A program made the translations under genes and the position numbers. The notes beneath the pieces are model-generated. The model worked only from the letters and a program-made list of their open reading frames with translations. It was not told the DNA's origin and ran no database searches. Below, piece after piece: positions 45,074-64,000 of a stretch of DNA of 64,000 nucleotides (its first letter is position 1; each line of letters opens with the position of its first letter). The stretch comes from Prescottella agglutinans (lineage in GTDB: Bacteria > Actinomycetota > Actinomycetes > Mycobacteriales > Mycobacteriaceae): the NCBI RefSeq assembly GCF_004011865.1, contig NZ_RKLP01000001.1:744001-808000 (forward strand). Reading direction: 5' to 3'.

Positions 45074-45420
45074 GCGAGACCATCACCAAGATCAAGGTCG
45101 GCGCGGTCGGCGACATCGAGGACGGCGAGGCGCTGGTCGTCGACGCCGAGCAGACGGGCACGGGCGAGCCCATCGCGGTCTTCCACGACGAGGGCGAGTA
45201 CTTCGCACTCAACGACCGCTGCAGCCACGGCGAGGCGTCCCTCGCGGACGGCTGGATCGAGGGCGGCCAGGTGGAGTGCCCGCTGCACTCGGGCAAGTTC
45301 TGCCTGCGCACCGGTTCCGTGCTCTCCATGCCCGCCACCGAGGACGTCGCGGCCCACAAGGTCGAGGTCGACGGCGACGAGATCTGGCTGTACCCCGGCC
45401 AGGCCGCCGCCGCGGAGTGA
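45070..45420 (+). CDS. Rieske-type ferredoxin of the dioxygenase
   Basis: A 116-residue BphA3/HcaC-like ferredoxin. The [2Fe-2S] ligands are in CSHGEASL and CPLHSGKF (C-x-H and C-x2-H). It passes electrons from the reductase to the alpha subunit. The GTG at 45070 overlaps the alpha stop as GTGA; an in-frame ATG at 45049 would add seven residues inside the alpha gene. It ends 7 bp before the reductase. Confidence 0.93.
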   Translation: MSETITKIKVGAVGDIEDGEALVVDAEQTGTGEPIAVFHDEGEYFALNDRCSHGEASLADGWIEGGQVECPLHSGKFCLRTGSVLSMPATEDVAAHKVEVDGDEIWLYPGQAAAAE

Positions 45421-45427
45421 CGCGTCC

Positions 45428-46666
45428 ATGAGCACACTCGAGCGCACCCCTGAGCGCATCGTCGTCGTCGGTGGCGGGCTGGCCGGCGTCAGCGCCGCCG
45501 GCGAACTGCGTAACCGCGGCTTCGACGGTGAGATCACGCTGGTCGACGGCGGGCCCGCGCCGTACGACCGTCCGCCGCTGTCCAAGGCGTTCATGTTCGG
45601 CACCGCCGACGAGTCGGATCTCGCCCTGGCCAAGCCGGATTGGTATGTCACGCAGCGGATCACGCTGTGCACCGGAGCCCCGGTGACGGCACTGAAGCCG
45701 GACGAGGGCGTGGTCGAACTCGCGGACGGCACCCGGCTGGACGCGGACGTGACGATCCTGACCACCGGAGCCGGCGCCCGACCCCTGCCGGTGCCCGGCG
45801 GCGACCTGCCGCAGGTGCACCTGCTCCGCACGATCGACGACGCCCGCGCCCTCAAGGCCCGGCTCGTCCCCGGTGCACGCCTCGTCGTGATCGGCGCCGG
45901 CCTGATCGGCGCCGAAACTGCTTCGGCGGCATTGCAGCTCGGCGCCCAGGTCACGCTGGTCGACCCGACCGATCCGCCGATCGTTCCCGCGGTCGGCCCG
46001 GAGATGGCGCGCTACCTGCACGACCAGCACGCCGAGCACGGCATCGCGGTGCACACCGCGGGTGTCACCGAGATCCGGGAAACCGGCGACTCGGTGACCG
46101 TCGTGCTCACCACCGGTGAGGAACTTGCCGCCGACGCGGTGCTCGTGGGAATCGGGTCGATCCCCTCGACCGAACTCGCCGAGTCCGCGGGCCTCGACGT
46201 CGACGGCGGTGTGCTCGTCGACGAGAACTTCCGCACGAGCCACCCGGCGGTGTTCGCCGCCGGCGACGTCGCTCGCCGCCGCGAGTCCGACGGCACGCTG
46301 CACCGGCGCGAAGAGCATTGGGAAGCAGCACAACTGAACGGACGTGCGGTTGCCGCCCGCGTCCTGGGGCAGGAACCCGAGCCCGAGTGCGCGGGTTGGT
46401 TCTGGTCCGACCGACACGGCATCCACGTGCAGGGCGTCGGATCGATGACCGCCGAGGGCGAGACCGTGATCCGGCCGCACCCCGACGACGCCGCCCGCCC
46501 GCAGATGGTGTTCCGAGTCCGGGGCAACACCCTGGTCGGAGCCGCGTTCATCGACGGCGGTCCCGCAGTGCGGGCCGCGCGCATCATCATCGACCGCGCA
46601 CTTCCGGTGGATCCGACCGCTCTGGCCGATCCGTCCGTCAATCTGCGCAAGCTCGCCAAAGGATGA
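45428..46666 (+). CDS. ferredoxin reductase of the dioxygenase (FAD, NAD(P)H)
   Basis: A 412-residue flavoprotein of the BphA4/HcaD type. VVVGGGLAGVSAAGELR binds FAD, VVIGAGLIGAETASA binds NAD(P)H, and FAAGDVARRRE is the second FAD contact. The C-terminal reductase domain follows with WFWSDRHGIHVQGVG. It oxidises NADH and reduces the Rieske ferredoxin. Genes for both electron carriers sit between the alpha and beta oxygenase genes, an uncommon order. Confidence 0.93.
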   Translation: MSTLERTPERIVVVGGGLAGVSAAGELRNRGFDGEITLVDGGPAPYDRPPLSKAFMFGTADESDLALAKPDWYVTQRITLCTGAPVTALKPDEGVVELADGTRLDADVTILTTGAGARPLPVPGGDLPQVHLLRTIDDARALKARLVPGARLVVIGAGLIGAETASAALQLGAQVTLVDPTDPPIVPAVGPEMARYLHDQHAEHGIAVHTAGVTEIRETGDSVTVVLTTGEELAADAVLVGIGSIPSTELAESAGLDVDGGVLVDENFRTSHPAVFAAGDVARRRESDGTLHRREEHWEAAQLNGRAVAARVLGQEPEPECAGWFWSDRHGIHVQGVGSMTAEGETVIRPHPDDAARPQMVFRVRGNTLVGAAFIDGGPAVRAARIIIDRALPVDPTALADPSVNLRKLAKG

Positions 46667-46674
46667 CTCGACTC

Positions 46675-47232
46675 ATGGCAACCGACACCACCGCGGCCGC
46701 CCAGCGGCAGGCCGCTGACGCCGACACCCACTTCCGGGTTCAGCAGTTCTACTTCCACGAGGCCGAACTGCTCGACGACGGCCGCTTCACCGACTGGCTC
46801 GACCTGCTCGCGGAGGACCTGCACTACTGGGCCCCGACCCGCAGCAACCGTCTGCGCCGCCAGCAGTCGCTCGCGGTCGCCGCGCGCGGCGAGGCCGCCT
46901 TCTTCGACGAGACCCGGGCGAGCCTGGCGTGGCGCATCCGCCGCTTCGACTCGGGCATGGCGTGGGCGGAGGATCCGCCGTCGCGCACCCGGCACCTGGT
47001 GAGCAACGTCATCGTCCGACACACCGGCGAGGACGAGCGCGAGATCGGGCAGTGGTACGCGCGTTCGAACTTCATCGTCTACCGCAACCGGCTCGAGCGC
47101 GAGGTCGACATCTACTCCGGCGGCCGCGAGGACATCCTCCGCGAGACCGAGAACGGCCTGGTGGTCGCCCGCCGCACGATCCTGCTCGACCAGAACGTGC
47201 TGCTGGCCAAGAACATCAGCACCTTCTTCTGA
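46675..47232 (+). CDS. ring-hydroxylating dioxygenase, beta subunit
   Basis: A 185-residue NTF2-fold subunit with the family signatures FYFHEAELLDDGRFTDWLDL, ADLHYWAP-like EDLHYWAPTRSN, and TRHLVSNVIV, ending NVLLAKNISTFF, the usual beta terminus. It structures the alpha3beta3 hexamer. The ATG at 46675 follows AAAGGA; an ATG at 46663 overlapping the reductase stop as ATGA is a close alternative. Confidence 0.92.
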   Translation: MATDTTAAAQRQAADADTHFRVQQFYFHEAELLDDGRFTDWLDLLAEDLHYWAPTRSNRLRRQQSLAVAARGEAAFFDETRASLAWRIRRFDSGMAWAEDPPSRTRHLVSNVIVRHTGEDEREIGQWYARSNFIVYRNRLEREVDIYSGGREDILRETENGLVVARRTILLDQNVLLAKNISTFF

Positions 47233-47295
47233 TTCTCGTTCCCCCTCGGACGACAAGCGACGATCCTCCCCCAGACACAAGGAGCGCGTGACACA

Positions 47296-48165
47296 GTGAC
47301 AACGAATGCAGCGGCGGAGACGGCCGTGACCACCCGCGAGGTCGAGACCTCGCTCGGCACCATCAAGGTGAGCGAGGCCGGCAGCGGCCCGGTCCTGGTG
47401 ATGCTGCACGGCGGCGGCCCGGGCGCGTCGGCGATCGCCAACTACAGCCAGAACCTGCCGGCGCTGACGCCGCACTTCCGCGTCGTGCTGCCGGACCAGC
47501 CGGGCTTCGGCGGCAGCTACCGCCCCTCGGAGGAGGACCTCCAGGAGCGCAGCATCACGCAGATCACCGTGGACGCGCTCATCCAGACCCTCGACGCAAT
47601 GGGCATCGAGGAGTTCCACCTGATGGGCAACAGCCTCGGTGGTGCCGCCGCGATCGCGCTCGCCCTGGCGATCCCGCACCGCGTCACCCGCCTGGTGCTG
47701 ATGGCTCCGGGCGGCGGCTGGCTGCCGTTCGGCCCGACGCCGACCGAGGGCCAGAAGGCGATGTTCCGCTACTACAACGGCGGCGGCCCGACCGTGAAGA
47801 AGATGAAGGACTTCGTCCGCACCATGGTCGCCGATCCCAAGCAGTTCGACGACGCCAACATCCAGGCCCGCTACGAGGCGTCGCTGGACGAGAGCCACAT
47901 CGAGTTCTACCACCGCTACAACGCCGCGTTCGCCCGTCGTCACGGTATGGATCCGCTGTGGCGCGACGCCCACAAGATCAAGGCGCCGACGCTGCTGCTG
48001 TGGGGCACCGACGACCGCACCATCACGTTCGAGGGCTCGCAGCTGATGCTCAAGCAGATCCCGGACGTGCAGCTGCACGCGTTCAGCCGGTGCGGCCACT
48101 GGGTCCAGGTCGAGCGGCAGAAGGAGTTCGAGCGGCTCGTGGTGGATTTCCTGGAGGATCAGTGA
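47296..48165 (+). CDS. meta-cleavage product hydrolase (BphD/MhpC/HsaD type alpha/beta hydrolase)
   Basis: A 289-residue C-C bond hydrolase. The oxyanion motif is LHGGGPGASAIANYSQNL, typical of meta-cleavage hydrolases; the nucleophile elbow is MGNSLGG (Ser), the acid is in GTDDRTI and the His in RCGHWVQVE. It splits the ring-opened product into hydroxypentadienoate, used by the hydratase, and a carboxylic acid. GTG start. The stop overlaps the dehydrogenase start as GTGA. Confidence 0.92.
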   Translation: MTTNAAAETAVTTREVETSLGTIKVSEAGSGPVLVMLHGGGPGASAIANYSQNLPALTPHFRVVLPDQPGFGGSYRPSEEDLQERSITQITVDALIQTLDAMGIEEFHLMGNSLGGAAAIALALAIPHRVTRLVLMAPGGGWLPFGPTPTEGQKAMFRYYNGGGPTVKKMKDFVRTMVADPKQFDDANIQARYEASLDESHIEFYHRYNAAFARRHGMDPLWRDAHKIKAPTLLLWGTDDRTITFEGSQLMLKQIPDVQLHAFSRCGHWVQVERQKEFERLVVDFLEDQ

Positions 48166-48994
48166 CCGGGTGGCTCGAGGGCAATGTCGCCCTCATCACC
48201 GGCGGCGGCTCCGGGCTGGGCCGGGCCGTCGCCGAGCGGTTCCTCGACGAGGGCGCATCGGTCGTCGTCGCGGACCGCGATCCCGCCAAGCTGAGCGAGC
48301 TGCTGGAGGCGGCCGGCGATCGCGCCGACCGCGTCCACACCGTCGAGGCCGACGTCCGGTCCACCGCCGACCAGCATCGTGCGGTCGCCGAGGCGGTCGG
48401 GCGCTTCGGTAAACTCGACACCCTGGTGCCCAATGCCGGCATCTGGGACTACCAGCGCAGCATCACCCGCCTGGACGGCGAGGAACTGTCCGCGGCGTTC
48501 GACGAACTGTTCGCGATCAACGTCAAGGGCTACCTGCTGGCCGTCGAGGCCGCGTGGCGCGAGCTGGTCAAGACCCGGGGCAGCGTCGTGATGACGCTGT
48601 CGAACTCGGCCTTCTACCCGAACGGAGGCGGTCCGCTGTACACCGCGAGCAAGCACGCCTGCCGCGGACTGGTGCTCGAACTTGCCTACGAGCTGGCCCC
48701 GAAGGTGCGCGTCAACGGCGTCGCCGCCGGCGGCATGCGCACCGACCTGCGCGGACCCGAATCGATCGGTCTGGCCGACCGCTCGATCGAGGCGTCGTTC
48801 GCGCGCAGCGCCACGACGGGCGCCAACCCGTTGCTGCCGCTGCACGACGCCAGCGTCGACCCTGCCGACTTCACGGCGCCGTACGTGCTGCTGGCCTCGT
48901 CGGCCAACAGCTCCAACATCACCGGTGCGATCATCCCCGTCGACGGCGGCATCGCCGCCCGCGGGTTCCGCACTGCAGCGGGCGGAGACGATCT

Positions 48995-48998
<4 letters not shown>
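48162..48998 (+). CDS. cis-dihydrodiol dehydrogenase (BphB/HcaB type SDR)
   Basis: A 278-residue short-chain dehydrogenase. NAD binding is by ALITGGGSGLGRAVAERF; VPNAGIWDYQ resembles the BphB signature; catalysis uses Ser and YTASKHA (Tyr, Lys). It re-aromatises the cis-dihydrodiol made by the dioxygenase to a catechol. GTG start overlapping the hydrolase stop; the stop overlaps the CoA ligase start, so the whole segment is translationally chained. Confidence 0.92.
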
Positions 48999-50592
<1,594 letters not shown>

Positions 50593-50596
<4 letters not shown>

Positions 50597-50991
50597 GCAC
50601 GCCGGGCTGGCCGCTGACGTACACCGTCGACGACGGTGGCGCTCCGCACGCGGTCCGCGCACGGTTCGCCGTGCGCGGGCCCCTCGGGAACGCCTACCCC
50701 GCGGGTATCGCCGACCTCGAACTCGACATCGACGGACTGCGCGACGCCCAGGTGCTGCGCGGACTCGGGGCGCGGATCCTGCGCGAGAACCCGGCGTGCC
50801 GACGGATCGTGCTGCCGGTACCGGTCGGCGACCTCGACGCGATCGGCTTCGCCGAGGACGCCGGATTCCGCTACGTCGTCGACGTCGACGTGCCCGGGGA
50901 ACGCGGTGCGATCACCGAACTGTCCCTCCTGGTCCTGGAACCGGGCTGGGTCGCGGACGCGCCGACCGCCGTCGACGACCTGCCCCTCTGA
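50593..50991 (+). CDS. hypothetical protein, possible truncated GNAT-like fold
   Basis: A 132-residue protein translated from an ATG overlapping the CoA ligase stop (ATGA). The middle (GARILRENPACRRIVLPVP, then LDAIGFAEDAGFRYVVDVDV) recalls the C-terminal half of GNAT acetyltransferases, where a helix is followed by GF.xE.AGFR, but the acetyl-CoA loop (Q/RxxGxG/A) is missing. It is last in the Rieske operon, before a strong terminator. If it is degenerate it is no longer an acyltransferase; the function is unknown. Confidence 0.65.
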
Positions 50992-51004
50992 CCGAGCCGG
51001 CCCC

Positions 51005-51042
51005 GAAGGGCGGTCGGATTCACCCGAATCCGACCGCCCTTC
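51005..51042 (+). terminator. terminator of the Rieske operon
   Basis: GAAGGGCGGTCGGATTC and GAATCCGACCGCCCTTC pair perfectly over 17 bp around an ACCC loop, followed by AGTCATTTT. This is a textbook intrinsic terminator, 14 bp after the last operon gene. Confidence 0.92.
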
Positions 51043-51110
51043 AGTCATTTTCGGGGATCGCTGCGGCGCGCCTCCCCCGCACTCGACTCGAGTTCTGGTA
51101 CTTGGTTGAG

Positions 51111-51977
51111 GTGAATGCATCTGCCACGCCGAGCCCATCGGCCCTCATGTCCGCCGCCGCCCGCGCCGCCCACGCGATCGTGGACCCGCCGCCGCATCTG
51201 ATCGTCGACGAGACCGCGCGACGCATCTGCGCGGCCGCCGGCAGCCCGTCGCCGCTCGACTTCCACCTTGCCCACCCCACCGAACCGATCCTCGCCGCGG
51301 CCCGCGTGTCGGCCGCCGCCCGCAGCGCCTACGCCGAGCAACTGCTGCGCTCCTCGGGCCTCCGCCAGTTCGTCGTCCTGGGCGCGGGCCTCGACACCGC
51401 CGCATCGCGCGCACCGGGATCGTGCGCCGTGTGGCACGTCGACCTCCCCGGGGTGCTCGCGTGGCGCGGGTCGCTGCTCGACGGGGCCGGTGTCCCGGAC
51501 CGCGGTGTGCCGGTGCCGGTCGACCTCGCCGTCGCCGACCCGGTTCCCGCACTCGTGCGCGCGGGCCTTCGAGCCGACGAGCCCGTCTTCGTGTCCTGGC
51601 TCGGGGTGTCGATGTATCTCGACGCCGACGGGGTGCGGCGCACCTTCGAATCCCTGGGTGCACTCGCACCGGGGTCCGAGTTGGTGTTCGACCACATCGT
51701 TCCCCCGGCCGACCGCGACGACGCCGGCGCCGACTACGCCCGGGCCGTGTCCGCCGCGGTCGGCGCGCAGGGCGAACCGTGGCGGTACACGCCTCCGCTC
51801 TCCGAACTGGAGGGTCGACTGGACGCGACCGGATGGTCGACGGTCGCGTCCGTGCGTGAATCCGACTCCGCCCCTGCGGGATTCTGGGCACGGTCGGTCG
51901 CACTGCGGCCCATGGAGTTGGTCCGCTTCACCCACGCCAGGCTGTCGCCGCCGCCGCGCACCGGACGAGACGGATAG
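51111..51977 (+). CDS. class I SAM-dependent methyltransferase (LCM/PF04072-like)
   Basis: A 288-residue protein of the actinobacterial leucine-carboxyl-methyltransferase-like family. SALMSAAARAAHAIVD and HLIVDETARRI form the family N-terminus, VVLGAGLDTAASR is SAM motif I, HVDLPGVLAWR motif II and VSWLGVSMYLD follows. It transfers methyl groups, with polyketide- or phenol-like acceptors in other members. GTG start at 51111 is chosen to retain the family N-terminus; an ATG at 51147 is possible. It begins about 70 bp after the Rieske operon terminator. Confidence 0.8.
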   Translation: MNASATPSPSALMSAAARAAHAIVDPPPHLIVDETARRICAAAGSPSPLDFHLAHPTEPILAAARVSAAARSAYAEQLLRSSGLRQFVVLGAGLDTAASRAPGSCAVWHVDLPGVLAWRGSLLDGAGVPDRGVPVPVDLAVADPVPALVRAGLRADEPVFVSWLGVSMYLDADGVRRTFESLGALAPGSELVFDHIVPPADRDDAGADYARAVSAAVGAQGEPWRYTPPLSELEGRLDATGWSTVASVRESDSAPAGFWARSVALRPMELVRFTHARLSPPPRTGRDG

Positions 51978-52015
51978 GCTCGCGGCGTCCGGTTCGACGA
52001 CACGTGGGGGATCCG

Positions 52016-53020
52016 ATGAGGCGTGCGGTCACACTTCGGCGGGCGGCGGCGGTCGTCGCCGGTGCCGGGATCGCGGCGGGGCTCGCCGCGTTGGTCGCGT
52101 TCGGCTCCGGGGCCACCAGCAACGTGGTCATCGTGGCGGCCTCGTTCGCTCCGCTGCTGCTGGTCGGGACAGTGGTCGGCGCGATCGCCGCCGCCGCGGC
52201 TCGACAGTGGGTGCTGCTCGGGGTCTCGGCGGTCGTCCTGGCGCTGGGTGCGTGGGCGTTGGGGCCGCTGTGGGTGGGCGGCGCCGCGGGCGAGCACGCC
52301 CCACCGACGGGCCCGGCGATCCGGGTGATGCAGTCCAACATCATGGTGGGATCGGCGGACCCGGCGGAGCTGGTGCGGTCGGTCCGCGAGCGGGATGTCG
52401 ACGTGCTCACGATCCAGGAGCTGACCGAGCCGTCGGTGGAGGCGTTGCGGGCGGCAGGGCTCGAGGAGGTCCTGCCGCACACCTTCCTGGCGCCGCACGT
52501 GACCGGTGGCGGCGGCGCCGGGATCTACAGCCGGTTGCCGCTGTCGAACGGCCGCAAGGTGGACGGGATGGCGCTGACGAATCTGGTTGCCGAGGTCGAT
52601 GCCGGACTGACCGAACCGGTGGTGGTGTTCGACGTGCACCCCGTGCCCGCGTACATCGCGCCGGCCACCGACTGGATCGAGGATTTCGATCGACTGCGGG
52701 ACGCGATGGACGAGGCCGCGGTGCACGAGAACGTGATCGTCAGCGGGGACTTCAATGCCACCTACGCGCACCGCAAGTTCCGGGATCTCCGCCACGGCGG
52801 CTACGTCGACGCCGCGGACCAACTGGGCGCCGGCATCCTGCCGACGTACCCGACCGACAAGAGCTACCCCGCGGTCGTCGGGATCGACCACATCCTCACC
52901 AAGGGCGCGCAGGCGACGTCGCTCGAACGCATCGACGTCGTCGGCTCGGATCACCACGGACTCGTCGCCGACGTGCAACTGAGTGCGCCTCAGAACGGCG
53001 GCGGATCGCCGTCGCAGTGA
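52016..53020 (+). CDS. membrane-anchored endonuclease/exonuclease/phosphatase-family protein
   Basis: A 334-residue protein. The N-terminus has three hydrophobic helices (about residues 9-95), followed by an EEP catalytic domain: VMQSNIMVG (Asn), IQELTE (metal-binding Glu), VFDVHPVP (His), VSGDFNAT (Asp-x-Asn) and a terminal SDHHGLVADV (Asp-His). The active site faces outward if the topology is odd. Such proteins cleave phosphodiesters of nucleic acids or lipids; the substrate is unknown. The ATG at 52016 follows GGGGGAT. It is convergent with the next gene. Confidence 0.82.
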   Translation: MRRAVTLRRAAAVVAGAGIAAGLAALVAFGSGATSNVVIVAASFAPLLLVGTVVGAIAAAAARQWVLLGVSAVVLALGAWALGPLWVGGAAGEHAPPTGPAIRVMQSNIMVGSADPAELVRSVRERDVDVLTIQELTEPSVEALRAAGLEEVLPHTFLAPHVTGGGGAGIYSRLPLSNGRKVDGMALTNLVAEVDAGLTEPVVVFDVHPVPAYIAPATDWIEDFDRLRDAMDEAAVHENVIVSGDFNATYAHRKFRDLRHGGYVDAADQLGAGILPTYPTDKSYPAVVGIDHILTKGAQATSLERIDVVGSDHHGLVADVQLSAPQNGGGSPSQ

Positions 53021-53030
53021 GGGGCGCTCA

Positions 53031-53792
53031 TCACCAGACCCGCATGCCCCCGTCGACGACGAGGTCGACGCCGGTCACGTACGAGCTCTCATCGGACGCG
53101 AGGAAGAGCGCGACGTTTGCGACCTCCTCGGGCCGACCGAACCGACCCAGCAGCGTCCGGCCGAGCATGGCCCTGGTCCACTCGGCGTCCGCCAACTGCG
53201 CCTCGGTGGCCTTGCTCTCGATCAGGCCGGGCGAGATCGAGTTGACGCGGATCCCGTGCTCGCTGCCCTCCAGAGCAAGTTGGCGGGTCATGCCGATGAC
53301 CGCCGATTTGTTCGCGGTGTGTGACAGGGACGGGATCTGCTTGAAGCTGAGCGAGGCGTTGAGCGAGGCCATGTTCACCACCACTCCGTGGCTGGCCTTC
53401 AGCCAGGGCCAGGCGGCGCGAGTGAGGTAGAAGACCAGGTCGACCTCGTCCCGACGCGCGCCGGCCCAGTCGGCGTCGCTGATGTCTTCGAGGCGGTCGA
53501 AGTAGGCCCGACCGGCGAGGTTGAACAGCACATCGATCCTCCCGAACCGGTCCGTCGCGAACTCGACCAGCCGCGCGCATTCGGCCGGATCACTCAGCCG
53601 GCACGGCTGCAGCGACACCATCTCGCCACCGACGGCGCGCACCAGTTCGGCGGTCTCCTCCGCCTCTGCGACGGCCACGTCGCATCCGACGATCAGTGCT
53701 CCCTCCCGGGCGAACACCCGGGCGGTGGCGCACCCCATGGCTCCCCCCGTGCCGGTGATCACGCAGATCTTTCCCGCAAGCCGACCCGACAT
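53031..53792 (-). CDS. SDR-family protein with the catalytic Tyr replaced by His
   Basis: A 253-residue classical SDR. The NAD(P) site is VITGTGGAMGCATARVFA, with NLAGRAYFD in place of NNAG. At the active site the usual Tyr-x-x-x-Lys reads His158-Thr-Ala-Asn-Lys162 (codon CAC); Ser is present in MASLNASLS. The C-terminus YVTGVDLVVDGGM is standard. Loss of the proton-donor Tyr suggests weak or altered activity. It is last in the minus-strand operon after the hydrolase (172 bp gap) and the MhpB-type dioxygenase. Confidence 0.85.
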   Translation of the reverse strand: MSGRLAGKICVITGTGGAMGCATARVFAREGALIVGCDVAVAEAEETAELVRAVGGEMVSLQPCRLSDPAECARLVEFATDRFGRIDVLFNLAGRAYFDRLEDISDADWAGARRDEVDLVFYLTRAAWPWLKASHGVVVNMASLNASLSFKQIPSLSHTANKSAVIGMTRQLALEGSEHGIRVNSISPGLIESKATEAQLADAEWTRAMLGRTLLGRFGRPEEVANVALFLASDESSYVTGVDLVVDGGMRVW

Positions 53793-53964
53793 CTCAGTGG
53801 CCTTCCTCGACGATGGCGAGCATTCGGCGGTTGTCGAGTTGGCAGATCCGCTCGCCGCGCTCGCCGACCTGCCCCGCAGTCGATCGACGCCGATCCGTTC
53901 TCCATGTAACCCCCGAGGCCCTGCGCCCCGCCAGGCCAAGGTCCGTCCGAACCGTCACTCGACG

Positions 53965-54783
53965 TCAGGCGACATCGTTGCAATCCACGACTCGCTCGAG
54001 GTGCGTGCGCACCGCCCGCGCCACCACGTCCGGGCCCTCCAGCATCGGGATGTGCCCGACACCCGACAGCACGATCTCCTCGACGCTCCCGGGCAGTTCG
54101 TCGAAGAATCGCTGGATGCACGTGTCCCGGGTCAGGAACGTGTCGAACTCCCCCAGGATCAGCGAGGTCGGCGCGGTGACGCGGTCGAGTCCGGTGAGAG
54201 GCCCGTCGCGCAGGAACGCGAGCAGGATCGGCAGGTACACGGTGCAGTGCGACACCGCCCGGATGACGTTCGTGGCGTCGTCGGGGTCGACCCGGGACGT
54301 GTCGTGGCTACAGTTCGCGATGACGGGTCGTTGGAAGAACCGATTCGACGCGGCACGGTCACCGAGCACCCGGGCGAGCGCCATGAGCGGGTACTGCGCC
54401 ACGAACCCGAAGCCGGTCCGGAACTCGGTGCGAGAGAACCGCTTCCAACCACCTCCCGGGTTGACCCCCGCTATGGAACGGGCACGGCCCCGACGCGCCA
54501 GTTCGAACGCGACCTGGCCGCCCAGCGAGTTCCCGACGACATGGCAGGTGTCCCATCCGATCTCGTCGAGTTCCCGTTCAATGCCGTCGGTGATTCCGCC
54601 GATCCCCAGATCGCGCCACCGCAGTCGCGGCCCGCCCCAGTGCCCGGGCATCGTGAGCGCGAGGACGTCGTAGTCGGACGCCAGATCGTCGACCACGCGA
54701 TGCCACACGTGGTGTGACAGCGTGAAGCCGTGCAACAACAGCACGGGCTCACCGGATCCCCCGCGATACGCCGACGTCACCAT
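53965..54783 (-). CDS. alpha/beta hydrolase of the MhpB operon
   Basis: A 272-residue hydrolase. The oxyanion segment is LLLHGFTLSHHVWHR, the nucleophile elbow GNSLGG, the acid in LGEFDTFL and the His in VGHIPMLEG. It is less like meta-cleavage hydrolases than the protein at 47296, because it lacks the GGGPGA turn, but could serve the same step on another compound. The ATG at 54783 has a strong GGGGGAGGAG ribosome binding site. It lies 104 bp downstream of the ring-cleavage dioxygenase, with a hairpin in between. Confidence 0.87.
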   Translation of the reverse strand: MVTSAYRGGSGEPVLLLHGFTLSHHVWHRVVDDLASDYDVLALTMPGHWGGPRLRWRDLGIGGITDGIERELDEIGWDTCHVVGNSLGGQVAFELARRGRARSIAGVNPGGGWKRFSRTEFRTGFGFVAQYPLMALARVLGDRAASNRFFQRPVIANCSHDTSRVDPDDATNVIRAVSHCTVYLPILLAFLRDGPLTGLDRVTAPTSLILGEFDTFLTRDTCIQRFFDELPGSVEEIVLSGVGHIPMLEGPDVVARAVRTHLERVVDCNDVA

Positions 54784-54839
54784 GTCGTCTCCTCCCCCGA
54801 GGCGTCCTTCATGGGTAGCACCCGGGTCCCGGAACGACA

Positions 54840-54872
54840 AGGGCCGGGCGCTCCCGACGAACGCCCGGCCCT
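54840..54872 (-). terminator. hairpin after the MhpB-type gene
   Basis: AGGGCCGGGCG and CGCCCGGCCCT pair over 11 bp with an 11-base loop, 15 bp past the dioxygenase stop. It may reduce rather than abolish transcription into the hydrolase gene. Confidence 0.65.
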
Positions 54873-54887
54873 GCACGGAAGTACGTG

Positions 54888-55820
54888 CTACTTCGCGGTG
54901 GTCACCGCGAAGCCGGCCACCCACTCGGGGATGGCGCGGTAGTAGCGCGACTGCAGTTCGTACGCGCCGGATGCCGCGAGCGCGGCGTAGGCCGCGATCC
55001 AGGTGCGGACCTCGTGCGACGATCCGCCGCCGTGCTCCTCGAAGAACTCGTTGCTCCAGCCGTCGAACTGCTCGAGGTCACCGGACGCGACGATGTCGAG
55101 AACGTCGTTGTCCCACTCGGGATTCAGCGGCCTGCGGGTGGACGTGCCGGCCGCCAGGTCGATTCCGGACTGCACGACGCGCTGCTCACCGCGGGCACGC
55201 TGCTCGGGGGTGGGCGGATTGCCGAGGATCAGGGCCTCGGCGACGCGCGGCGGGGCGCCCGCGAGGATCGGCACCGGCGGGTCGTGCGACAGGCCGCCGG
55301 ACGCCAGGAACAGCACCCGCTTGTCGAGCAGCGCCGCCGCCTCGCCGAGCGCCTTGCCGAACTGGCGGATGCGGCGTACCGGGCCGAGCGGAGCCGCGAC
55401 ACCATTGATGAACACCGGCACGACCGGGACCGACCGGATGCCGCCGAACAGCATCTCCAGCGGCTGCACGAAGCCGTGGTCGACCACCATGCGGGCCGAG
55501 ATCGTCAGGTCGATGTCCCGCTCGAGCACACCCTCGGCGATCCGGTTGGCCGACTCCGCGTCGACGAGGATCTCGCCCTCCGCGGAACCGAAGTCGCCCA
55601 CCGCGATCGCGCCGGTGGCGATCGCGAACGGGGGCATCTTCTCGTAGAAGAAGCCGTTGTAGTGGTCGGGCGCGAACAGCACGACGACCTCGGGATCGAA
55701 CTCCTCGATGAACTTCCGCGCCCCGGCAACGGCGTGATCGACCTCGTCGAGCACCTGCTGAGCGGGATCGTTGAGCCCGATCAGCGGTGAGTGGGACAGC
55801 GCAACCAGCGCGACTGGCAT
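54888..55820 (-). CDS. mhpB: class III extradiol ring-cleavage dioxygenase, MhpB type
   Basis: A 310-residue LigB-superfamily enzyme resembling 2,3-dihydroxyphenylpropionate 1,2-dioxygenase (family length ~314). The N-terminus VALVALSHSPLIGLND carries an Fe(II)-binding His, FAPDHYNGFFY a second, then MVVDHGFVQPLEML and LASGGLSHDPPVP the catalytic His and Glu region. It opens 3-alkylcatechols at the meta position. The Rieske operon lacks such an enzyme, so this gene may supply it. It follows the IclR gene by 65 bp. Confidence 0.92.
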   Translation of the reverse strand: MPVALVALSHSPLIGLNDPAQQVLDEVDHAVAGARKFIEEFDPEVVVLFAPDHYNGFFYEKMPPFAIATGAIAVGDFGSAEGEILVDAESANRIAEGVLERDIDLTISARMVVDHGFVQPLEMLFGGIRSVPVVPVFINGVAAPLGPVRRIRQFGKALGEAAALLDKRVLFLASGGLSHDPPVPILAGAPPRVAEALILGNPPTPEQRARGEQRVVQSGIDLAAGTSTRRPLNPEWDNDVLDIVASGDLEQFDGWSNEFFEEHGGGSSHEVRTWIAAYAALAASGAYELQSRYYRAIPEWVAGFAVTTAK

Positions 55821-57613: not shown

Positions 57614-58411
57614 ATGGCAGGTACTCCCCGCGAAGCGGGCCGGACCACCACGTCGCGGGTACTCGCGATCCTCGAGGTGTTCGAGAACGATCCCGGGCCG
57701 ATCGCGTTGAGCAACATCGCCGCCGAGACCGGCATGCCGTTGACCACGGTGCACCGCCTGGTCGGCGAACTCGAGCGGTGGGGCGCACTGCTCCGCGTAC
57801 CGGACGGTCGATATCAGGTCGGCATCCGCCTGTGGGAGATCGGCCAGAACGCCGGCGTGCGGCTCCGTGACATCGTCCATCCCCCGCTCCAGGATCTGTT
57901 CGACCTCACCCACGAGACAGTCCACTTCGTCGTGCGCCGCGGCACCGAGGTGATCTACGTCGATCGGATCTACGGCAGTCGGCGCGTCCCCCGCCTCGCA
58001 CGGGTCGGCAGCCGACTCCCGCTGCATCCGACAGCCGTCGGGAAAGTACTTCTGGCATATCAGGATCCATGGTTCCGGGAGACGTATCTCGCCGGCACGC
58101 TGGAACGCCACTCCCGATTCACCATCACCGAACCGGCGCGGCTCGCACGCGAACTCGACACCATCCGCGAACTGGGGTACGCCAAGACCCAGGAGGAGAT
58201 GGTGCTCGGATCGTGCTCGGTCGCGATCCCGGTCCGTGCACCGAACGACGAAGTCGTCGCCGCGCTCGGCATGGTCCTCCCGAGCAACCGTTCGACGGAC
58301 ATGACCCGGTTCCTGCCACCGCTGAAGGGCACCGGGGCCCGACTGGAAAAGATGTTCAAGGCTCTCCCGCAGCCCGTCGAACAGGCAATACGCAGCTTCT
58401 GGTTGAGCTGA
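57614..58411 (+). CDS. IclR-family transcriptional regulator
   Basis: A 265-residue regulator with the winged HTH TSRVLAILEVFENDPGPIALSNIAAETGMPLTTVHRLVGEL and the IclR effector domain (YVDRIYGSRRVPRLARVGSRLPLHPTAVGKVLLAY; CSVAIPVRAPNDEVVAALGMV). It lies 76 bp upstream of the HD-domain gene in the same direction, so it probably controls the P450-fusion operon. It is only distantly like the IclR protein at 55886. Confidence 0.9.
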   Translation: MAGTPREAGRTTTSRVLAILEVFENDPGPIALSNIAAETGMPLTTVHRLVGELERWGALLRVPDGRYQVGIRLWEIGQNAGVRLRDIVHPPLQDLFDLTHETVHFVVRRGTEVIYVDRIYGSRRVPRLARVGSRLPLHPTAVGKVLLAYQDPWFRETYLAGTLERHSRFTITEPARLARELDTIRELGYAKTQEEMVLGSCSVAIPVRAPNDEVVAALGMVLPSNRSTDMTRFLPPLKGTGARLEKMFKALPQPVEQAIRSFWLS

Positions 58412-58487: not shown

Positions 58488-59192
58488 ATGGAGACCAACA
58501 GCACAGGGCATCCAGGCGACAGTGACCGCATCGGAACGGACCCGACGCACGACCACATCTGGCGCAGGGCCGCCCCGTATCTTCGAGTGCGGGACAACGA
58601 CTCTCACACGCTGTATGCGTTCGGTCTCGCCCGGGCCCTGATCGACCAGGTTCCGGGGACGCGGCCCGAGATCGTGCTGCCGGCGATCCTGCTCCACGAC
58701 GTCGGCTGGTCGACGGTCCCGGAGGACCTGGTGCTGGAAGCGATAGCGCCACAGCCGCGGCATCCGGAACTGGTCCGGGTCCACGAGATCGAGGGCGCCG
58801 CGATCGCGCGGTCGATCCTCGGCGACGTCGGCACACCCGATGCCGACATCGACGAGATCACCGCGATCATCGACGGTCACGACAGCCGCCGCGAGGCCAC
58901 CAGCCCCAGCGACGCGGTCGTCAAGGACGCCGACAAGCTCTGGCGACTCACACCACACGGGCTGGCCACCGTCGGCCGATGGTTCGGACTCGCCCCGTCC
59001 GAGGCGCTGCGCCTGGTCGGGTCCCGGACCCACGACCACCTGTGCACCGAACCCGCCCGGGTGATGGCCCGCGCGTTCGCCGCGATCGCGTCGACCCGGT
59101 CGTCGCCGCAGCTTCTCGAACTGTCGCCCTCCGCACCGAATACCCCAGACACCGCGCTCTACGAGCACCCGACACCGCGAGTCCAGGAGTGA
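58488..59192 (+). CDS. HD-domain phosphohydrolase-like protein
   Basis: A 234-residue HD-fold protein. The motif residues appear as His40 (DSHTLYA), His70-Asp71 (LLHDVGW), two further His (VHEIEGAAIA and DGHDS) and a late Asp in VKDADKLWR. This is the metal site of HD phosphohydrolases. It ends 2 bp before the P450-PEP-synthase fusion, so it is in the same operon. In cresol catabolism by phosphorylation a phosphohydrolase removes the phosphate after oxidation; this protein is the obvious candidate for that step here (inference). Confidence 0.83.
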   Translation: METNSTGHPGDSDRIGTDPTHDHIWRRAAPYLRVRDNDSHTLYAFGLARALIDQVPGTRPEIVLPAILLHDVGWSTVPEDLVLEAIAPQPRHPELVRVHEIEGAAIARSILGDVGTPDADIDEITAIIDGHDSRREATSPSDAVVKDADKLWRLTPHGLATVGRWFGLAPSEALRLVGSRTHDHLCTEPARVMARAFAAIASTRSSPQLLELSPSAPNTPDTALYEHPTPRVQE

Positions 59193-59194
59193 AC

Positions 59195-61594
59195 ATGTCC
59201 GCGCCGACGCAGCAGACGACCGCCACCGTGCCCACCGGTGGTTGCCCGGTCGACCACCATGGCTACGAACCGTTCGACATGAACGACCCGTTCTCGGCCT
59301 ACGCCCGCCTCCGTGCGACCGAACCCGTCATGTTCGACGAGCGGATCGGCTGCTGGGTGGTCACCCGCTACGAGGACATCAAGGCCGTCTTCGACAACTG
59401 GGAGGTCTTCAGCAGCGAGAACGCGCAGGCTCCGGTCCGGGAACGAGGGCCGCAGGCGAAGAAGATCATGAACGACGGCGGGTTCACCGCCTACTCGGGC
59501 CTGTCCGCCCGCCGGCCACCGGAGCACACCCGGATCCGCAAGGCGACCTCGAAGGCGTTCACTCCGCGCCGCTACAAGGCACTCGAACCGTTCATCCGCG
59601 CGAACGTCGACAAGCAGTTGCGGGCCCTGCTCGCGCACGAGGACCGCCGCGGCGACCTGCTGCGCGACCTCGCCTACGACGTACCGACCGTGACGATCCT
59701 GACGCTGATCGGTGCCGACGCGAGCCAGGTCGACCAGTACAAGCGCTGGTCCGACTCCCGCGCCGCGATGACGTGGGGAAACCTGAGCGACGAGCAGCAG
59801 ATTCCGCACGCGCACAACCTGGTCGAGTACTGGCAGGAGTGCCTGCGGTTGGTGGCCCACGCCCACACGCACGGCGGCGACAACCTCGTCGCCGACCTGG
59901 TGCGCGCCCAGCAGGAGGGCACGGAGATCACCGACCACGAGATCGCGTCGGTCTGCTACAGCCTGCTGTTCGCCGGGCACGAGACGACCACGACGCTGAT
60001 CTCCAACACGCTGCGCCTGCTGCTGGCCCACCGGGATCAGTGGGAGGCGCTGCGGGAGGATCCCAAGAAGATTCCGAAGGCCGTCGAAGAGGTGCTGCGC
60101 TACTCCCCCTCGATCGTCGCCTGGCGCCGAAAGGCACTCGAGGACACGATGATCGGAGAAACCGCGATCTCGGCTGGAGCCGAGATCCTGTTGGTGATGG
60201 GCTCCGCCAACCGGGACGAGTCACAGTTCGCCGATCCCGAGAGCTTCGACATCACCCGCGACAACGCGCGCGAGCACCTCGCCTTCGGCTTCGGCCTGCA
60301 CTACTGCCTGGGCAACATGCTCGCCAAGCTCCAGACCCGCATCGTCGTCGAGGAGGTGCTGAAGACGGCCCCGTTCCTCGAACTCGTCGATCCCGACGCG
60401 ATCACCTTCGGTGAGAACCTGTCGTTCCGCGCCCCGACAGCGGTGCCGGTGCGGTGGGACGCGCCCGGCGACAGCGCGGCCGACACGGAGGGCACCATCG
60501 AGACCGGGGCGGCCCGGTACATCCAGTTCTTCGACAGCCCACACGAGCCGCAGCACGATCAGTTGGGCGGCAAGTGCGCCTCGCTGGTGTCGCTGACGGC
60601 GGCCGGCATGCCGGTGCCGCCCGGCTTCGCGCTCACCACGATGCTCTACGACGACTTCATCGCGTCGGCCGGCATCGCCGACGAGATCCGTGAGCTGCTC
60701 GCGGGCCTCGATCCGGAGGACGTCACCGGCGTTGACGCGGTCTCCGCGCGGATCCGGGACGCGATCACCTCGCGCCCCGTCCCGGAACCGCTGCGACACT
60801 TGACGATCGAGGCGTACGAGCGGCTGCAGTCGCGGTTCGACCACCCCGTGCCGGTGGCGGTACGCTCGTCCGCGACCGCCGAGGACCTGCCCGACGCCAG
60901 CTTCGCCGGCCAGCAGGACACGTACCTGTGGCTCAACGGGATCGACGAGGTGCTCGAGCACATCCGGCGCTGCTGGGCATCGCTCTACACCAGCCGCGCG
61001 ATCACGTACCGGCTGAAGAACAACATCCCGGACGCCGGGCTCTCGATGGCCGTCGCGGTCCAGAAGATGGTCAGCGCCAAGGTCGCCGGCGTCGCTATGA
61101 CGATGGACCCCACCAACGGGGACCGCTCGAAGATCACCGTCGACGCGTCGTACGGTGTCGGCGAGATGGTGGTCTCCGGTCAGGTCACCCCGGACAACAT
61201 CGTGCTCGACAAGGTGATGCTGACCGTGGTGTCCGAGACGATCGGCGACAAGCACGCCGAACTGATCCCCGATCCGGTCTCGCACCGCCTCGTCGAGCGT
61301 GAGGTCGACGCCGACCGCCGCACCTGCCGCAGCCTGAGCGACGACGAACTGCAGGCCGTCGCCGCGATCGCCAAGCGCGCCGAGAAGCACTACGGATGCC
61401 CCCAGGACATCGAGTGGGCCCTCGACGCCGATCTCCCGGACGGCGAGAACCTCCTGCTGCTGCAGTCCCGCCCCGAAACCGTCTGGTCCGCAAAACCCGC
61501 GCAGGACAAAGCAACCGAGACCACCGCACCTGCACGGCGGACCTTCGACATGAGCTCGATCAGCCGAGCCATGACCAAGCCACACTCCGCCTGA
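59195..61594 (+). CDS. cytochrome P450 fused to the ATP-binding domain of PEP synthase
   Basis: A 799-residue bifunctional protein. Residues ~20-425 form a complete bacterial P450: I-helix Ala260-Gly-His-Glu-Thr264, ExxR at Glu299-Arg302, and the heme loop FGFGLHYCLG with Cys371. After a linker of about 25 residues, ~445-770 are a PPDK_N/PEP-synthase ATP-grasp domain: GGKCASL (458-464), VAVRSSATAEDLPDASFAG with Arg557, VAGVAMTMDPTNGD and LLLLQSRPETVW (Arg759). The phospho-His and PEP-binding domains of PEP synthase are absent and the His domain is in the next gene. No ferredoxin or reductase is attached. ATG 2 bp after the HD gene. Confidence 0.93.
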   Translation: MSAPTQQTTATVPTGGCPVDHHGYEPFDMNDPFSAYARLRATEPVMFDERIGCWVVTRYEDIKAVFDNWEVFSSENAQAPVRERGPQAKKIMNDGGFTAYSGLSARRPPEHTRIRKATSKAFTPRRYKALEPFIRANVDKQLRALLAHEDRRGDLLRDLAYDVPTVTILTLIGADASQVDQYKRWSDSRAAMTWGNLSDEQQIPHAHNLVEYWQECLRLVAHAHTHGGDNLVADLVRAQQEGTEITDHEIASVCYSLLFAGHETTTTLISNTLRLLLAHRDQWEALREDPKKIPKAVEEVLRYSPSIVAWRRKALEDTMIGETAISAGAEILLVMGSANRDESQFADPESFDITRDNAREHLAFGFGLHYCLGNMLAKLQTRIVVEEVLKTAPFLELVDPDAITFGENLSFRAPTAVPVRWDAPGDSAADTEGTIETGAARYIQFFDSPHEPQHDQLGGKCASLVSLTAAGMPVPPGFALTTMLYDDFIASAGIADEIRELLAGLDPEDVTGVDAVSARIRDAITSRPVPEPLRHLTIEAYERLQSRFDHPVPVAVRSSATAEDLPDASFAGQQDTYLWLNGIDEVLEHIRRCWASLYTSRAITYRLKNNIPDAGLSMAVAVQKMVSAKVAGVAMTMDPTNGDRSKITVDASYGVGEMVVSGQVTPDNIVLDKVMLTVVSETIGDKHAELIPDPVSHRLVEREVDADRRTCRSLSDDELQAVAAIAKRAEKHYGCPQDIEWALDADLPDGENLLLLQSRPETVWSAKPAQDKATETTAPARRTFDMSSISRAMTKPHSA

Positions 61595-61662: not shown

Positions 61663-63477
61663 ATGACGATGAAGTCCTTTCCGAGCCCCTTCGACCTCGA
61701 GACGCCCGCCGGCGCCGAGGGCTGGCAGGAGCTCTACCCGTACAACATGGTCTTCCAGCCGAACCGCCAGGACGTCGACGACGCCAAGTTCTGGTTCTGC
61801 GACAGCCAGCACTGGCCCACCGTGTTCAAGCCGTTCGAGACCATCGGTGGTGAATTCGCCGTCAAGTGCCTGGGCCAGTACAACACCCGGCACCTGCTGA
61901 TCCCGAACTCCAACGGCATCGAGTTCAAGATGCACCTCGGCTACCTGTACATGTCGCCGATCCCCGCGCCCGAGGAGGAGTTCGACACCCGCGCGCCGCT
62001 GTTCGAGGAGCGCGCCGCGTACTACTACCAGAACTGGGATTCGCTGCTCGAGAAGTGGCACAAGAAGGTTCGCCAGACGATCGACGAGATGAACGCGCTG
62101 TCGTTCGCGAAGCTGCCCGACATGGTGTCGATCGAGGACATCCGCTCGGGCACCGCCAAGGACGGCACCGAGGTTCTGCTCGAGAACTACGACCGGCTGA
62201 TCCAGCTCTGCTACCAGAACTGGCAGTACCACTTCGAGTTCCTCAACCTCGGGTACATCGCATACCTCGACTTCTTCGGCTTCTGCAAGGAGGTGTTCCC
62301 GAACATCCCCGACCAGTCGATCGCGACGATGGTGCAGGGCGTCGACATGGAGCTGTTCCGGCCCGACGACGAGCTCAAGCACCTCGCGAAGCTGGCGGTG
62401 GAGCTCGGGCTGACCGGGTTGTTCGGCGACACCGACGACCCGGCCGGAACCCTGGCCCGGATCGCGGCGGCACCGAACGGCGCCGCGTGGATCGCCCAGT
62501 ACGAGGGCGCCCAGGATCCATGGTTCAACTTCACGGTCGGCAACGGCTTCTACGGCCACGACAAGTACTGGATCGAGCACCAGGAACTCCCACTGGGGTA
62601 CATCGCCGACTACATCCGGCGCCTCGGTGAGGGACAGGAGATCATGCGCCCGGTGGCCGAACTGGCCGCCGAACGCGACCGGATCGCCGAGGAGTACCGC
62701 GACCTGCTCGACGACGACACGCGAGAGTCGTTCGACGCCAAGCTCGGTCTGGCCCGCACCGCGTACCCGTACGTCGAGAACCACAACTTCTACATCGAGC
62801 ACTGGACGATGGGCGTCTTCTGGCGCAAGGTCCGGGAGCTCTCCCGGATGCTGCACGAGGAGGGTTTCTGGCCCGAGCAGGACGACCTGCTGTACCTCAA
62901 GCGCGGCGAGGTGCGCGAAGCCCTGTTCGACCTCGCCACCGCGTGGGCCGTCGGCGCCGAGCCGACCGGACCGCACTACTGGCCCGCCGAGATCGAGCGC
63001 CGTCGAGGCATCATCGACGCGCTGAAGTCCCGCCGCCCCGAGCCGGCACTCAACACTCCCCCGGAGTTCATCACCGAGCCGTTCACGAGCATGCTGTACG
63101 GCATCACCACCGAGCAGGTCCAGCAGTGGCTCAGCGACGACGAGCAGTCCGGCGACAATCTCCGCGGCATGGCCGCGTCGCCGGGTGTCGTGGAGGGCGT
63201 CGCCCGCGTCGTCACCAGCTCCGACGAGCTGTCGCTGGTCCAGGACGGCGAGATCCTCGTCGCGCCGGTGACGGCTCCGTCCTGGGGCCCGATCTTCGGG
63301 AAGATCAAGGCGACGGTGACCGACATCGGCGGCATGATGAGCCACGCCGCGATCGTGTGCCGCGAGTACGGTCTGCCGGCCGTGACCGGCACCGGCTCCG
63401 CGTCGACCCAGATCCGGACCGGGCAGCGTCTGCACGTCGACGGCACCAAGGGTGTCGTCACGATCCTGGGCGAGTGA
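61663..63477 (+). CDS. PEP-utilising-domain protein, phosphotransferase partner of the P450 fusion
   Basis: A 604-residue protein. The first ~480 residues form a large helical domain rich in aromatic residues (LYPYNMVFQPNRQDVDDAKFW; YIEHWTMGVFWRKVRELSRML). The last ~85 residues are the swivelling phospho-His domain: DIGGMMSHAAIVCREYGLP, with His561 the residue phosphorylated in PEP synthase, then GTGSAS and the terminal VDGTKGVVTILG. The same layout is found in phenylphosphate synthase subunit 1 and CreH-like proteins, where His passes phosphate from ATP to a phenol. There is no ATP-grasp domain; the neighbour supplies it. AGAGGA precedes the ATG. Confidence 0.88.
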   Translation: MTMKSFPSPFDLETPAGAEGWQELYPYNMVFQPNRQDVDDAKFWFCDSQHWPTVFKPFETIGGEFAVKCLGQYNTRHLLIPNSNGIEFKMHLGYLYMSPIPAPEEEFDTRAPLFEERAAYYYQNWDSLLEKWHKKVRQTIDEMNALSFAKLPDMVSIEDIRSGTAKDGTEVLLENYDRLIQLCYQNWQYHFEFLNLGYIAYLDFFGFCKEVFPNIPDQSIATMVQGVDMELFRPDDELKHLAKLAVELGLTGLFGDTDDPAGTLARIAAAPNGAAWIAQYEGAQDPWFNFTVGNGFYGHDKYWIEHQELPLGYIADYIRRLGEGQEIMRPVAELAAERDRIAEEYRDLLDDDTRESFDAKLGLARTAYPYVENHNFYIEHWTMGVFWRKVRELSRMLHEEGFWPEQDDLLYLKRGEVREALFDLATAWAVGAEPTGPHYWPAEIERRRGIIDALKSRRPEPALNTPPEFITEPFTSMLYGITTEQVQQWLSDDEQSGDNLRGMAASPGVVEGVARVVTSSDELSLVQDGEILVAPVTAPSWGPIFGKIKATVTDIGGMMSHAAIVCREYGLPAVTGTGSASTQIRTGQRLHVDGTKGVVTILGE

Positions 63478-63478
63478 G

Positions 63479-64000
63479 ATGAGAACCGTTCTGATCACCG
63501 GTGGCGCCGGCGGACTCGGCCGCGCGTTCGCCCAGGGATTCGCCGACCGCGGCTACCGTGTGGCCGTCGCCGACATCGACGCCGCCGGCGCAGAGGAGAC
63601 CGCAGGACTGCTGCGCGAGAGCGCCGCCGAGGCGATGTCGCTGGCGGTGGACGTGACCTCGATGGAATCCACCGACGCGATGGCGGCCGCGGTCGCCGAG
63701 TTCGGCGGCGGCCACATCGACGTCCTCGTCAACAACGCGGCGATCTACGCCGGCGTCACCCGGTCCCCCTTCGAGGAGATCGACCCGGATGAATGGGACC
63801 GCGTCATGGCGGTGAACCTCAAGGGACCGTGGATGTGCGCGCGGGCCTGCAGCCGGTACCTCGCGGAGGGCGGATCGGTCGTGAACCTCTCCTCCGCAAC
63901 AATTCTCAGCGGATCGGCGCACTGGATGCACTACGTGGCATCGAAGGGCGGCGTCGTCGCACTGACCCGGGTGATGGCCAAGGAATTGGGTGCACGGTCG
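63479..64000 (+). CDS. SDR-family oxidoreductase (cut by window end)
   Basis: The frame is open from the ATG at 63479 to the last base (174 codons). The N-terminus VLITGGAGGLGRAFAQGF binds NAD(P), LVNNAAIY is the NNAG-type motif, SSATILSG carries the Ser, and YVASKGG the catalytic Tyr and Lys. It begins 1 bp after the PEP-utilising gene's stop, so it belongs to the operon. A likely role is oxidising the alcohol made by the P450, as in cresol catabolism (inference). Confidence 0.88.
   Translation, partial: MRTVLITGGAGGLGRAFAQGFADRGYRVAVADIDAAGAEETAGLLRESAAEAMSLAVDVTSMESTDAMAAAVAEFGGGHIDVLVNNAAIYAGVTRSPFEEIDPDEWDRVMAVNLKGPWMCARACSRYLAEGGSVVNLSSATILSGSAHWMHYVASKGGVVALTRVMAKELGARS

Follow-up and report, generated by a model that had tools for sequence, protein, structure and literature searches.

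How does a cytochrome P450 come to share one polypeptide with a kinase component, and in which pathway would such a protein act? The question is raised by a gene at positions 59195-61594 (forward strand) of the window, i.e. the whole 64,000-nucleotide stretch of Prescottella agglutinans DNA analyzed here (contig NZ_RKLP01000001.1, positions 744,001 to 808,000). The favored answer, to which a probability of about 0.8 is given jointly with the mechanism proposed below, is that this gene encodes a fusion of the P450 CreJ with CreI, the ATP-grasp component of a two-component dikinase, within a complete cre cluster dedicated to the catabolism of 4-cresol or other 4-alkylphenols.

Translation of the gene yields a single open frame of 799 amino acids with no internal stop. 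From the N- to the C-terminal end, it is formed by a cytochrome P450, a 19-residue linker, and an ATP-grasp domain, identified by Pfam as p450 (E 4e-29) and PPDK_N (residues 455-775, E 2e-107). A preliminary description, made from the letters of this DNA, had announced one uninterrupted frame holding a full P450 and a full PPDK_N domain, and both the frame and the motifs are as described: AGHET (260-264), the ExxR motif as EVLR (299-302), and heme Cys371 on the P450 side, GGKCASL (458-464), Arg557, and QSRP (757-760) on the ATP-grasp side, where VRSSATAED is also present. An HD-domain gene ends 2 bases before the start codon, and AGGAG lies ahead of this codon. The GC content at third codon positions is 0.92 in the P450, 1.00 in the linker, and 0.94 in the ATP-grasp part. 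The AlphaFold model of the fusion (mean predicted local distance difference test score, pLDDT, 83.3; predicted template modeling score, pTM, 0.55) exhibits two confident domains, and the pLDDT falls below 50 in linker stretch 424-436. The alignment used as input for this model (A2) puts some P450 C-terminal ends in ATP-grasp columns, and the conservation of the ATP-grasp half is therefore taken from alignment A1.

The P450 half is assigned by homology to the CreJ type. Its best solved matches in the sequence search are 5xjn and 5gwe (671 bits), the next solved P450 scoring 263 bits. The same entries, named cytochrome P450 CREJ, occupy the top four rows of the fold search with a template modeling score of 0.96 on the target, and the first row displays 73% identity. 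AGHET, ExxR, and the heme cysteine are invariant in all 16 rows of alignment A2 that show those columns. The C-terminal end of crystallized CreJ aligns at window residue 423, about where the linker starts. The ligand in 5xjn is 4-ethylphenyl phosphate and, by analogy with CreJ, the P450 half is predicted to act on aryl phosphates and not on free phenols.

The C-terminal half is assigned, likewise from its sequence, to the CreI-type ATP-grasp component of two-component phenolic dikinases (CreI/HpeI/PpsB). Both sequence and fold searches give as its nearest solved structure 9goj, which is HpeI of Rhodococcus rhodochrous GD02, and Lys460 and Arg557 are invariant in the eight rows of alignment A1. 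As the examined signature residues are all there, it is unlikely that both domains are non-catalytic. The characterized I components are separate chains, whereas the ATP-grasp domain of the window sits in the P450 frame. The swivel and second-substrate domains that define a single-chain dikinase are absent from this chain, PPDK_N being the only dikinase domain of the fusion. A moonlighting phosphoenolpyruvate (PEP) synthase is thus ruled out, since the fusion has neither the swivel nor the PEP domain; an ordinary single-chain PpsA-type protein of 791 amino acids is also encoded in the same genome (contig G000:C20). The C-terminal tail of CreI stays free in the fused design. As judged by eye, many of the 41 I-component C-termini displayed end with a variable tail followed by a short hydrophobic peptide, e.g. 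FDMSSISRAMTKP or SIVSTLLSPIHTR. This recurring peptide is a putative element by which I components may possibly dock to CreH.

The gene downstream of the fusion encodes a CreH-type protein, recognized by the NCBIfam model NF006150 with 1148 bits against a cut-off of 650, and by the Pfam PEP-utilizers domain. Its TDIGGMMSH sequence corresponds to T/SxxGGxxxH, the conserved swivel motif (PMC12167813), and its histidine, His561, is shared by all 12 rows of the alignment. A serine precedes this histidine, as in the CreH and PpsA proteins discussed in the same article. The CreH model (mean pLDDT 82.4, pTM 0.86) has eight fold matches at E 0.001 or better, of which the first six are all rifampin phosphotransferase (~600 columns each, 17-19% identity), a likeness reported for HpeH too (PMC12167813).

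The surroundings of the fusion were compared with the annotated cre cluster of a Rhodococcus ruber plasmid (L023). The gene order in the window genome is IclR, HD, [P450-ATP-grasp], CreH, SDR (short-chain dehydrogenase/reductase), 2Fe-2S ferredoxin, FAD reductase, HD, and ALDH (aldehyde dehydrogenase), the last genes extending past the window end to ~68002 in window numbering. Four additional proteins, for which Pfam gave nothing, probably represent shadow frames. The proteins of the cluster are 55-76% identical to their R. ruber counterparts and keep the same relative order, except that the first HD and IclR genes are swapped (HD before IclR in R. ruber). The set that defines a cre cluster, i.e. 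kinase H and I, P450, ferredoxin, FAD reductase, SDR, ALDH, and HD, is found together, at 61-76% identity. CreG, CreC, and CreD are named as cre pathway enzymes in PMC8796525; genes of the present cluster may be assigned to them, and an HD protein would be the phosphatase CreD. Table 1 gives the coordinates of the features in the window.

Table 1. Parts of the fusion and genes of the cre module in the window.
Feature	Position in window	Strand	Details
IclR-family regulator, first cre-module gene	57614..58411	+	Pfam IclR_C, HTH_IclR; 55% identity to R. ruber cluster IclR
HD-domain protein, putative phosphohydrolase	58488..59192	+	Pfam HD; 61% identity to R. ruber upstream HD protein
P450 (CreJ) domain	59195..60457	+	Fusion residues 1-421; heme Cys371 codon 60305-60307
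Linker	60458..60514	+	Fusion residues 422-440; predicted disordered; no in-frame ATG/GTG/TTG
ATP-grasp (CreI, PPDK_N) domain	60515..61591	+	Fusion residues 441-799; Lys460, Arg557
Low-confidence C-terminal tail	61481..61591	+	Residues 763-799; short recurring hydrophobic end peptide; candidate docking peptide
CreH (phenol-binding and phosphohistidine swivel component)	61663..63477	+	Predicted catalytic His561 at 63343-63345
SDR-family dehydrogenase, CreG-like	63467..64000, running past window end to equivalent of 64216	+	Pfam adh_short; 76% identity to R. ruber SDR

Five of the 14 genomes of the genus harbor a close copy of the fusion, each with an open junction. Four copies are intact: that of the window genome (G000) and those of G005 (95% identical), G007 (94%), and G008 (87%). 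The fifth genome, G002 (79% complete), has an open junction and a frameshift near residue 375; as its CreH and IclR genes are broken too, it is read as the product of error-prone assembly. The sixth fused copy, 79% identical, occurs in a second genus of the same family (G090), where one of six genomes has it. Pairwise comparison of the intact copies gives, for both domains, 0.01-0.14 nonsynonymous (dN) and 0.13-0.83 synonymous (dS) substitutions per site, a ratio of ~0.08-0.23; purifying selection acts on each domain. Linker length differs among species (19, 13, or 6 residues), through insertions and deletions that are whole-codon and in frame. The frameshifts of G002 might raise the suspicion that a sequencing or assembly artefact joined two genes. 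This is hardly conceivable given the five intact genomes (the four of the genus and G090), with their synonymous divergence and different linkers. The preliminary description had seen its proposal as endangered if close relatives had separate genes and the window a frameshift; this objection fails, for although the genes stand apart in relatives beyond the clade of fused copies, the fused frame is kept across species.

How common is this arrangement? Three draws of genomes, which overlap in some genomes, were searched at family, order, and phylum level. The family draw (401 genomes, cut-off E 1e-90) returned 16 matches, six fused (G002 included) and ten separate. Among the 21 matches of the order draw (397 genomes, cut-off 1e-80), one is the window genome itself, one has adjacent separate genes (G648), one has the halves ~11 kb apart (G500), and 18 show one half only; the five matches of the phylum draw (396 genomes, cut-off 1e-100) comprise the window genome and four genomes matched solely in the ATP-grasp half. 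Species genomes were also scanned, for the best 80 of 579 related loci, in which records close to the window may have been left out: a P450 gene stands directly before the ATP-grasp gene in 23 of these 80, separate in 22 and fused in one (L075). The latter is a 790-amino-acid protein, 49% identical to that of the window, encoded at 2791-5163 of contig CADCWC010000049.1 from a Thermoleophilia metagenome-assembled genome (AVDCRST_MAG79), and is followed by CreH, HD, ALDH, HD, and SDR genes. With this protein as query, 249 genomes of the class Thermoleophilia gave nine matches at 1e-80, and both halves lie in one match only in the genome of L075 itself. To note, the same draw displays tandem P450 genes at G741:C13:193497-196022 (L149/L156), with ~9 bases between matches. 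Plasmid-borne fusions were looked for and rejected: of 1551 matching plasmid records two span 80% or more of the query, with separate genes in each.

Altogether, adjacent halves are present in 41 distinct genomes or records, as fusions in seven and as separate genes in 34. In a tree of these 41 rows, the six copies from G090 and the window genus group in a single clade (Shimodaira-Hasegawa-like approximate likelihood ratio test 99) nested among separate pairs, and the single-protein trees of the P450, the ATP-grasp protein, and CreH also group the six. L075 falls outside this clade, and at least two state changes are forced. A single origin of the seven fusions is rejected by the approximately unbiased test (p 2.8e-5), with L075 on a long branch and a quick tree search. 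A second, independent fusion in Thermoleophilia is likely and not proven, because of this long branch, the short tree search, and the single metagenome assembly.

The junction itself indicates how the genes may have merged. In separate pairs, GGGAG is found in the last creJ codons, close before the creI start, in 10 of the 13 displayed, and in five relatives (G387, G053, L052, L054, and L055) just one stop codon interrupts what would otherwise be a continuous creJ-creI frame. Among the fused copies of the clade, the CreJ end ...VPVTWE has become ...VPVRWD (RWN in G002) and the creI start codon is gone. The linkers of the four intact genomes of the genus contain no in-frame start codon; in the window, the nearest in-frame starts are GTG at 417 and 419, in the P450 end, and TTG at 457, with none between 419 and 457. 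Separate production of CreI is therefore unlikely in the window clade, and starts at 417/419 or 457 would give an odd product.

These observations bear on a neutral scenario, in which two operon genes separated by a few bases lost the stop between them and the second start decayed, the product working like two free proteins with no gain in channeling or assembly. The five relatives one stop away from a single frame, the freedom of the linker to vary in sequence and length, and the mere seven fused cases out of 41 make this scenario quite plausible, at somewhat less than even odds. It accounts less well for a fused state common to two genera whose P450 dS reaches 0.56-0.83 between them, for linker indels that remain in frame, for the loss of the internal start, and for the recurrence of a J-I fusion in another part of the tree. 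The neighboring I-H junction is also fused once: Kocuria dechangensis (L054 9989-12946) encodes CreI and CreH as a single 985-amino-acid protein (PPDK_N and PEP-utilizers), with a separate P450, in a cre cluster. This is the one such case among 65 I-before-H loci, a set in which a genome may be represented more than once.

The mechanism proposed for the CreJ-CreI fusion is built on characterized homologues, from which both the phosphorelay and the substrate are derived by analogy. The C-terminal ATP-grasp domain would bind ATP and offer it to the swivel domain of CreH, a separate protein whose His561 would take up the phosphate. The substrate, 4-cresol or a similar 4-alkylphenol, would then be phosphorylated by CreH while bound in a domain of CreH itself. 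The N-terminal P450 would oxidize the alkyl group of the resulting aryl phosphate, its electrons being supplied by the 2Fe-2S ferredoxin and the FAD reductase of the downstream genes. The SDR, the ALDH, and the HD-family phosphatase would complete the conversion to 4-hydroxybenzoate. The flexible linker would hold the P450 beside the site where CreH is recharged, ensuring a 1:1 ratio of P450 to ATP-grasp and a high local P450 concentration where its substrate arises; such a benefit of tethering may be supposed from the architecture. PMC12167813 reports that both components of HpeHI are required, HpeI being the ATP-grasp protein presenting ATP and HpeH contributing the swivel histidine and the phenol site; changing this histidine abolishes activity, while HpeH alone shifts phosphate among phenols. 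The roles of the redox partners follow the C. glutamicum system (PMC9549646).

The analogy with cresol catabolism drawn in the preliminary description thus holds: the P450 is CreJ-type, the ATP-grasp half CreI-type, and the next gene CreH-type, all in a cre cluster. Its view that phosphorylation and oxidation are covalently united in one chain is correct as to the joining of the P450 with the ATP-grasp, and has to be amended as to the phenol-phosphorylating CreH, which is a separate protein. Likewise, it had credited the ATP-grasp half with phosphorylating phenols, whereas homology to HpeHI indicates that this half would charge a histidine on CreH and that CreH would phosphorylate the phenol. 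For guaiacol, which it had listed as a candidate substrate, no support was found in the analysis.

Several points weigh against the proposed function. The phenol is expected to be phosphorylated on CreH, so that the tether alone would not put the P450 at the site of product release, and the fusion model (pTM 0.55) does not fix the mutual orientation of the two domains. HpeH and HpeI formed no stable complex in solution (PMC12167813), and a lasting J-I-H assembly is therefore not established. Activity and expression of the fusion are predictions from sequence, and its substrate is assigned by homology. The fusion could result from neutral loss of a stop codon. Most sampled relatives (34 of 41) get by with separate proteins, and nine of the 14 genomes in the genus are without a close copy. 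Finally, the L075 fusion comes from a single metagenome contig, in which a GTG codon, three bases downstream of a GGAG, might serve as an internal start.

Still, the fusion of CreJ and CreI suggests that the Cre enzymes operate as a physical assembly. Since J and I are fused in one place and I and H in another, a Rosetta-stone argument would have J, I, and H working in contact. Tentatively, one may picture a Cre metabolon of phosphorylation and oxidation, an idea considered less likely than not, in which CreH swings from the tethered ATP-grasp, where it is charged, to the tethered P450, where it hands over the aryl phosphate. The phosphate would then serve both as an activation handle and as a channeling tag, different lineages having frozen different contacts by fusion: J-I in the window clade and Thermoleophilia, I-H in Kocuria dechangensis.

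Is 4-cresol the substrate? Another 4-alkylphenol or phenolic compound, such as 4-ethylphenol or a longer-chain one, might take its place, the fusion being incidental to the substrate. The 4-ethylphenyl phosphate of the CreJ crystal, the range of p- and m-alkylphenols on which the C. glutamicum system is reported to act (PMC9549646), and a second aromatic cluster next door with a phenylpropionate/cinnamate-type dioxygenase would fit such an alternative. It is nevertheless considered rather unlikely, as the cre-type genes are kept downstream at 64-76% identity to R. ruber, including the SDR and ALDH that would take the benzylic carbon to the acid. From 4-hydroxybenzoate, the product expected with 4-cresol, a plausible exit is provided by a PobA-like protein (458 bits, below the cut-off of 538.7) and by PcaH, above its curated cut-off, both in the window genome.

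CreJ, CreI, and CreH were reportedly characterized in the 4-cresol (Cre) pathway of Corynebacterium glutamicum by Du et al. 2016 (J Biol Chem). The likeness of the window to this system is close, with a P450 73% identical to CreJ, homologous ATP-grasp and CreH proteins, and the ferredoxin, reductase, SDR, ALDH, and HD genes; the difference is that CreJ and CreI form one polypeptide, as compared to two genes in the 34 separate cases sampled. An H gene precedes the I gene in 42 of 107 H-next-to-I loci, an order opposite to that of the window; these 42 loci are presumably PpsAB-like. PpsAB itself, the phenylphosphate synthase of Thauera and Aromatoleum, is likewise an H and I dikinase, acting on phenol (PMC12167813), and differs in being an anaerobic system. 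HpeHI of R. rhodochrous GD02 belongs to the same two-component type and provides, with HpeI, the nearest solved relative of the window ATP-grasp. It acts on 4-hydroxyacetophenone and acetovanillone (PMC12167813), HpeI is a free protein, and the Hpe pathway continues with a carboxylase instead of a P450 (PMC9618137). Rifampin phosphotransferase and PEP synthase possess homologous ATP-grasp and swivel domains, the CreH model being closest to the former. In these enzymes the ATP-grasp is fused to the swivel and substrate domains, whereas in the window it is fused to a P450 and the swivel is elsewhere.

Natural P450 fusions are known, mostly to electron-transfer domains, as in self-sufficient P450s of the CYP116B type (6kbh, 6laa). 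In the window, the P450 is fused to a kinase domain, and the Fer2 protein and the reductase are encoded by separate downstream genes. No description of a P450-dikinase fusion was found among the papers listed by text searches of the open-access literature, subscription papers being outside their scope; the word P450 does not occur in PMC12167813. The pathway and each of its parts are already known, while the joining of CreJ to CreI, i.e. of a P450 to a kinase component, appears new. It provides direct genetic evidence that a part required for installing the phosphate handle is physically linked to the P450 predicted to need this handle. As the same enzyme pair occurs in nature both fused and split, aryl-phosphate channeling and the reason for prior phosphorylation become testable. 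The cre pathway already serves as a biocatalyst in the selective oxidation of alkylphenols (PMC9549646), and the fusion would be a compact part for alkylphenol biocatalysts.

The genomic surroundings of the module appear to differ among the fused copies. Nucleotide similarity to G007 (pieces above 250 bases) is confined to window 57517-67981 (L025 1518-11982, a window position being the L025 position plus 55999), and that to G008 to two blocks inside roughly this span, whereas the similarity to G005 and G002 extends over more than 17 kb. The similarity being limited to the cre span in G007 and G008, the neighborhood of the module seems to change from one species to another. The HD gene upstream of the fusion, present in the other four genomes of the genus, has no match in G008 (L028), and it is therefore not required in every cre cluster.

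Beside the cre module, the interval 43736-55820 contains a second aromatic-catabolism cluster, encoding a Rieske ring-hydroxylating dioxygenase like HcaE (436 bits, below the cut-off), a FAD reductase, alpha/beta hydrolases, a CoA ligase, an SDR, and a LigB-type 3-carboxyethylcatechol 2,3-dioxygenase above the NF009910 cut-off. At 12589-14583, a single frame of 664 amino acids holds two distinct NAD-binding domains, NAD_binding_4 (male-sterility type) followed by a short-chain dehydrogenase.

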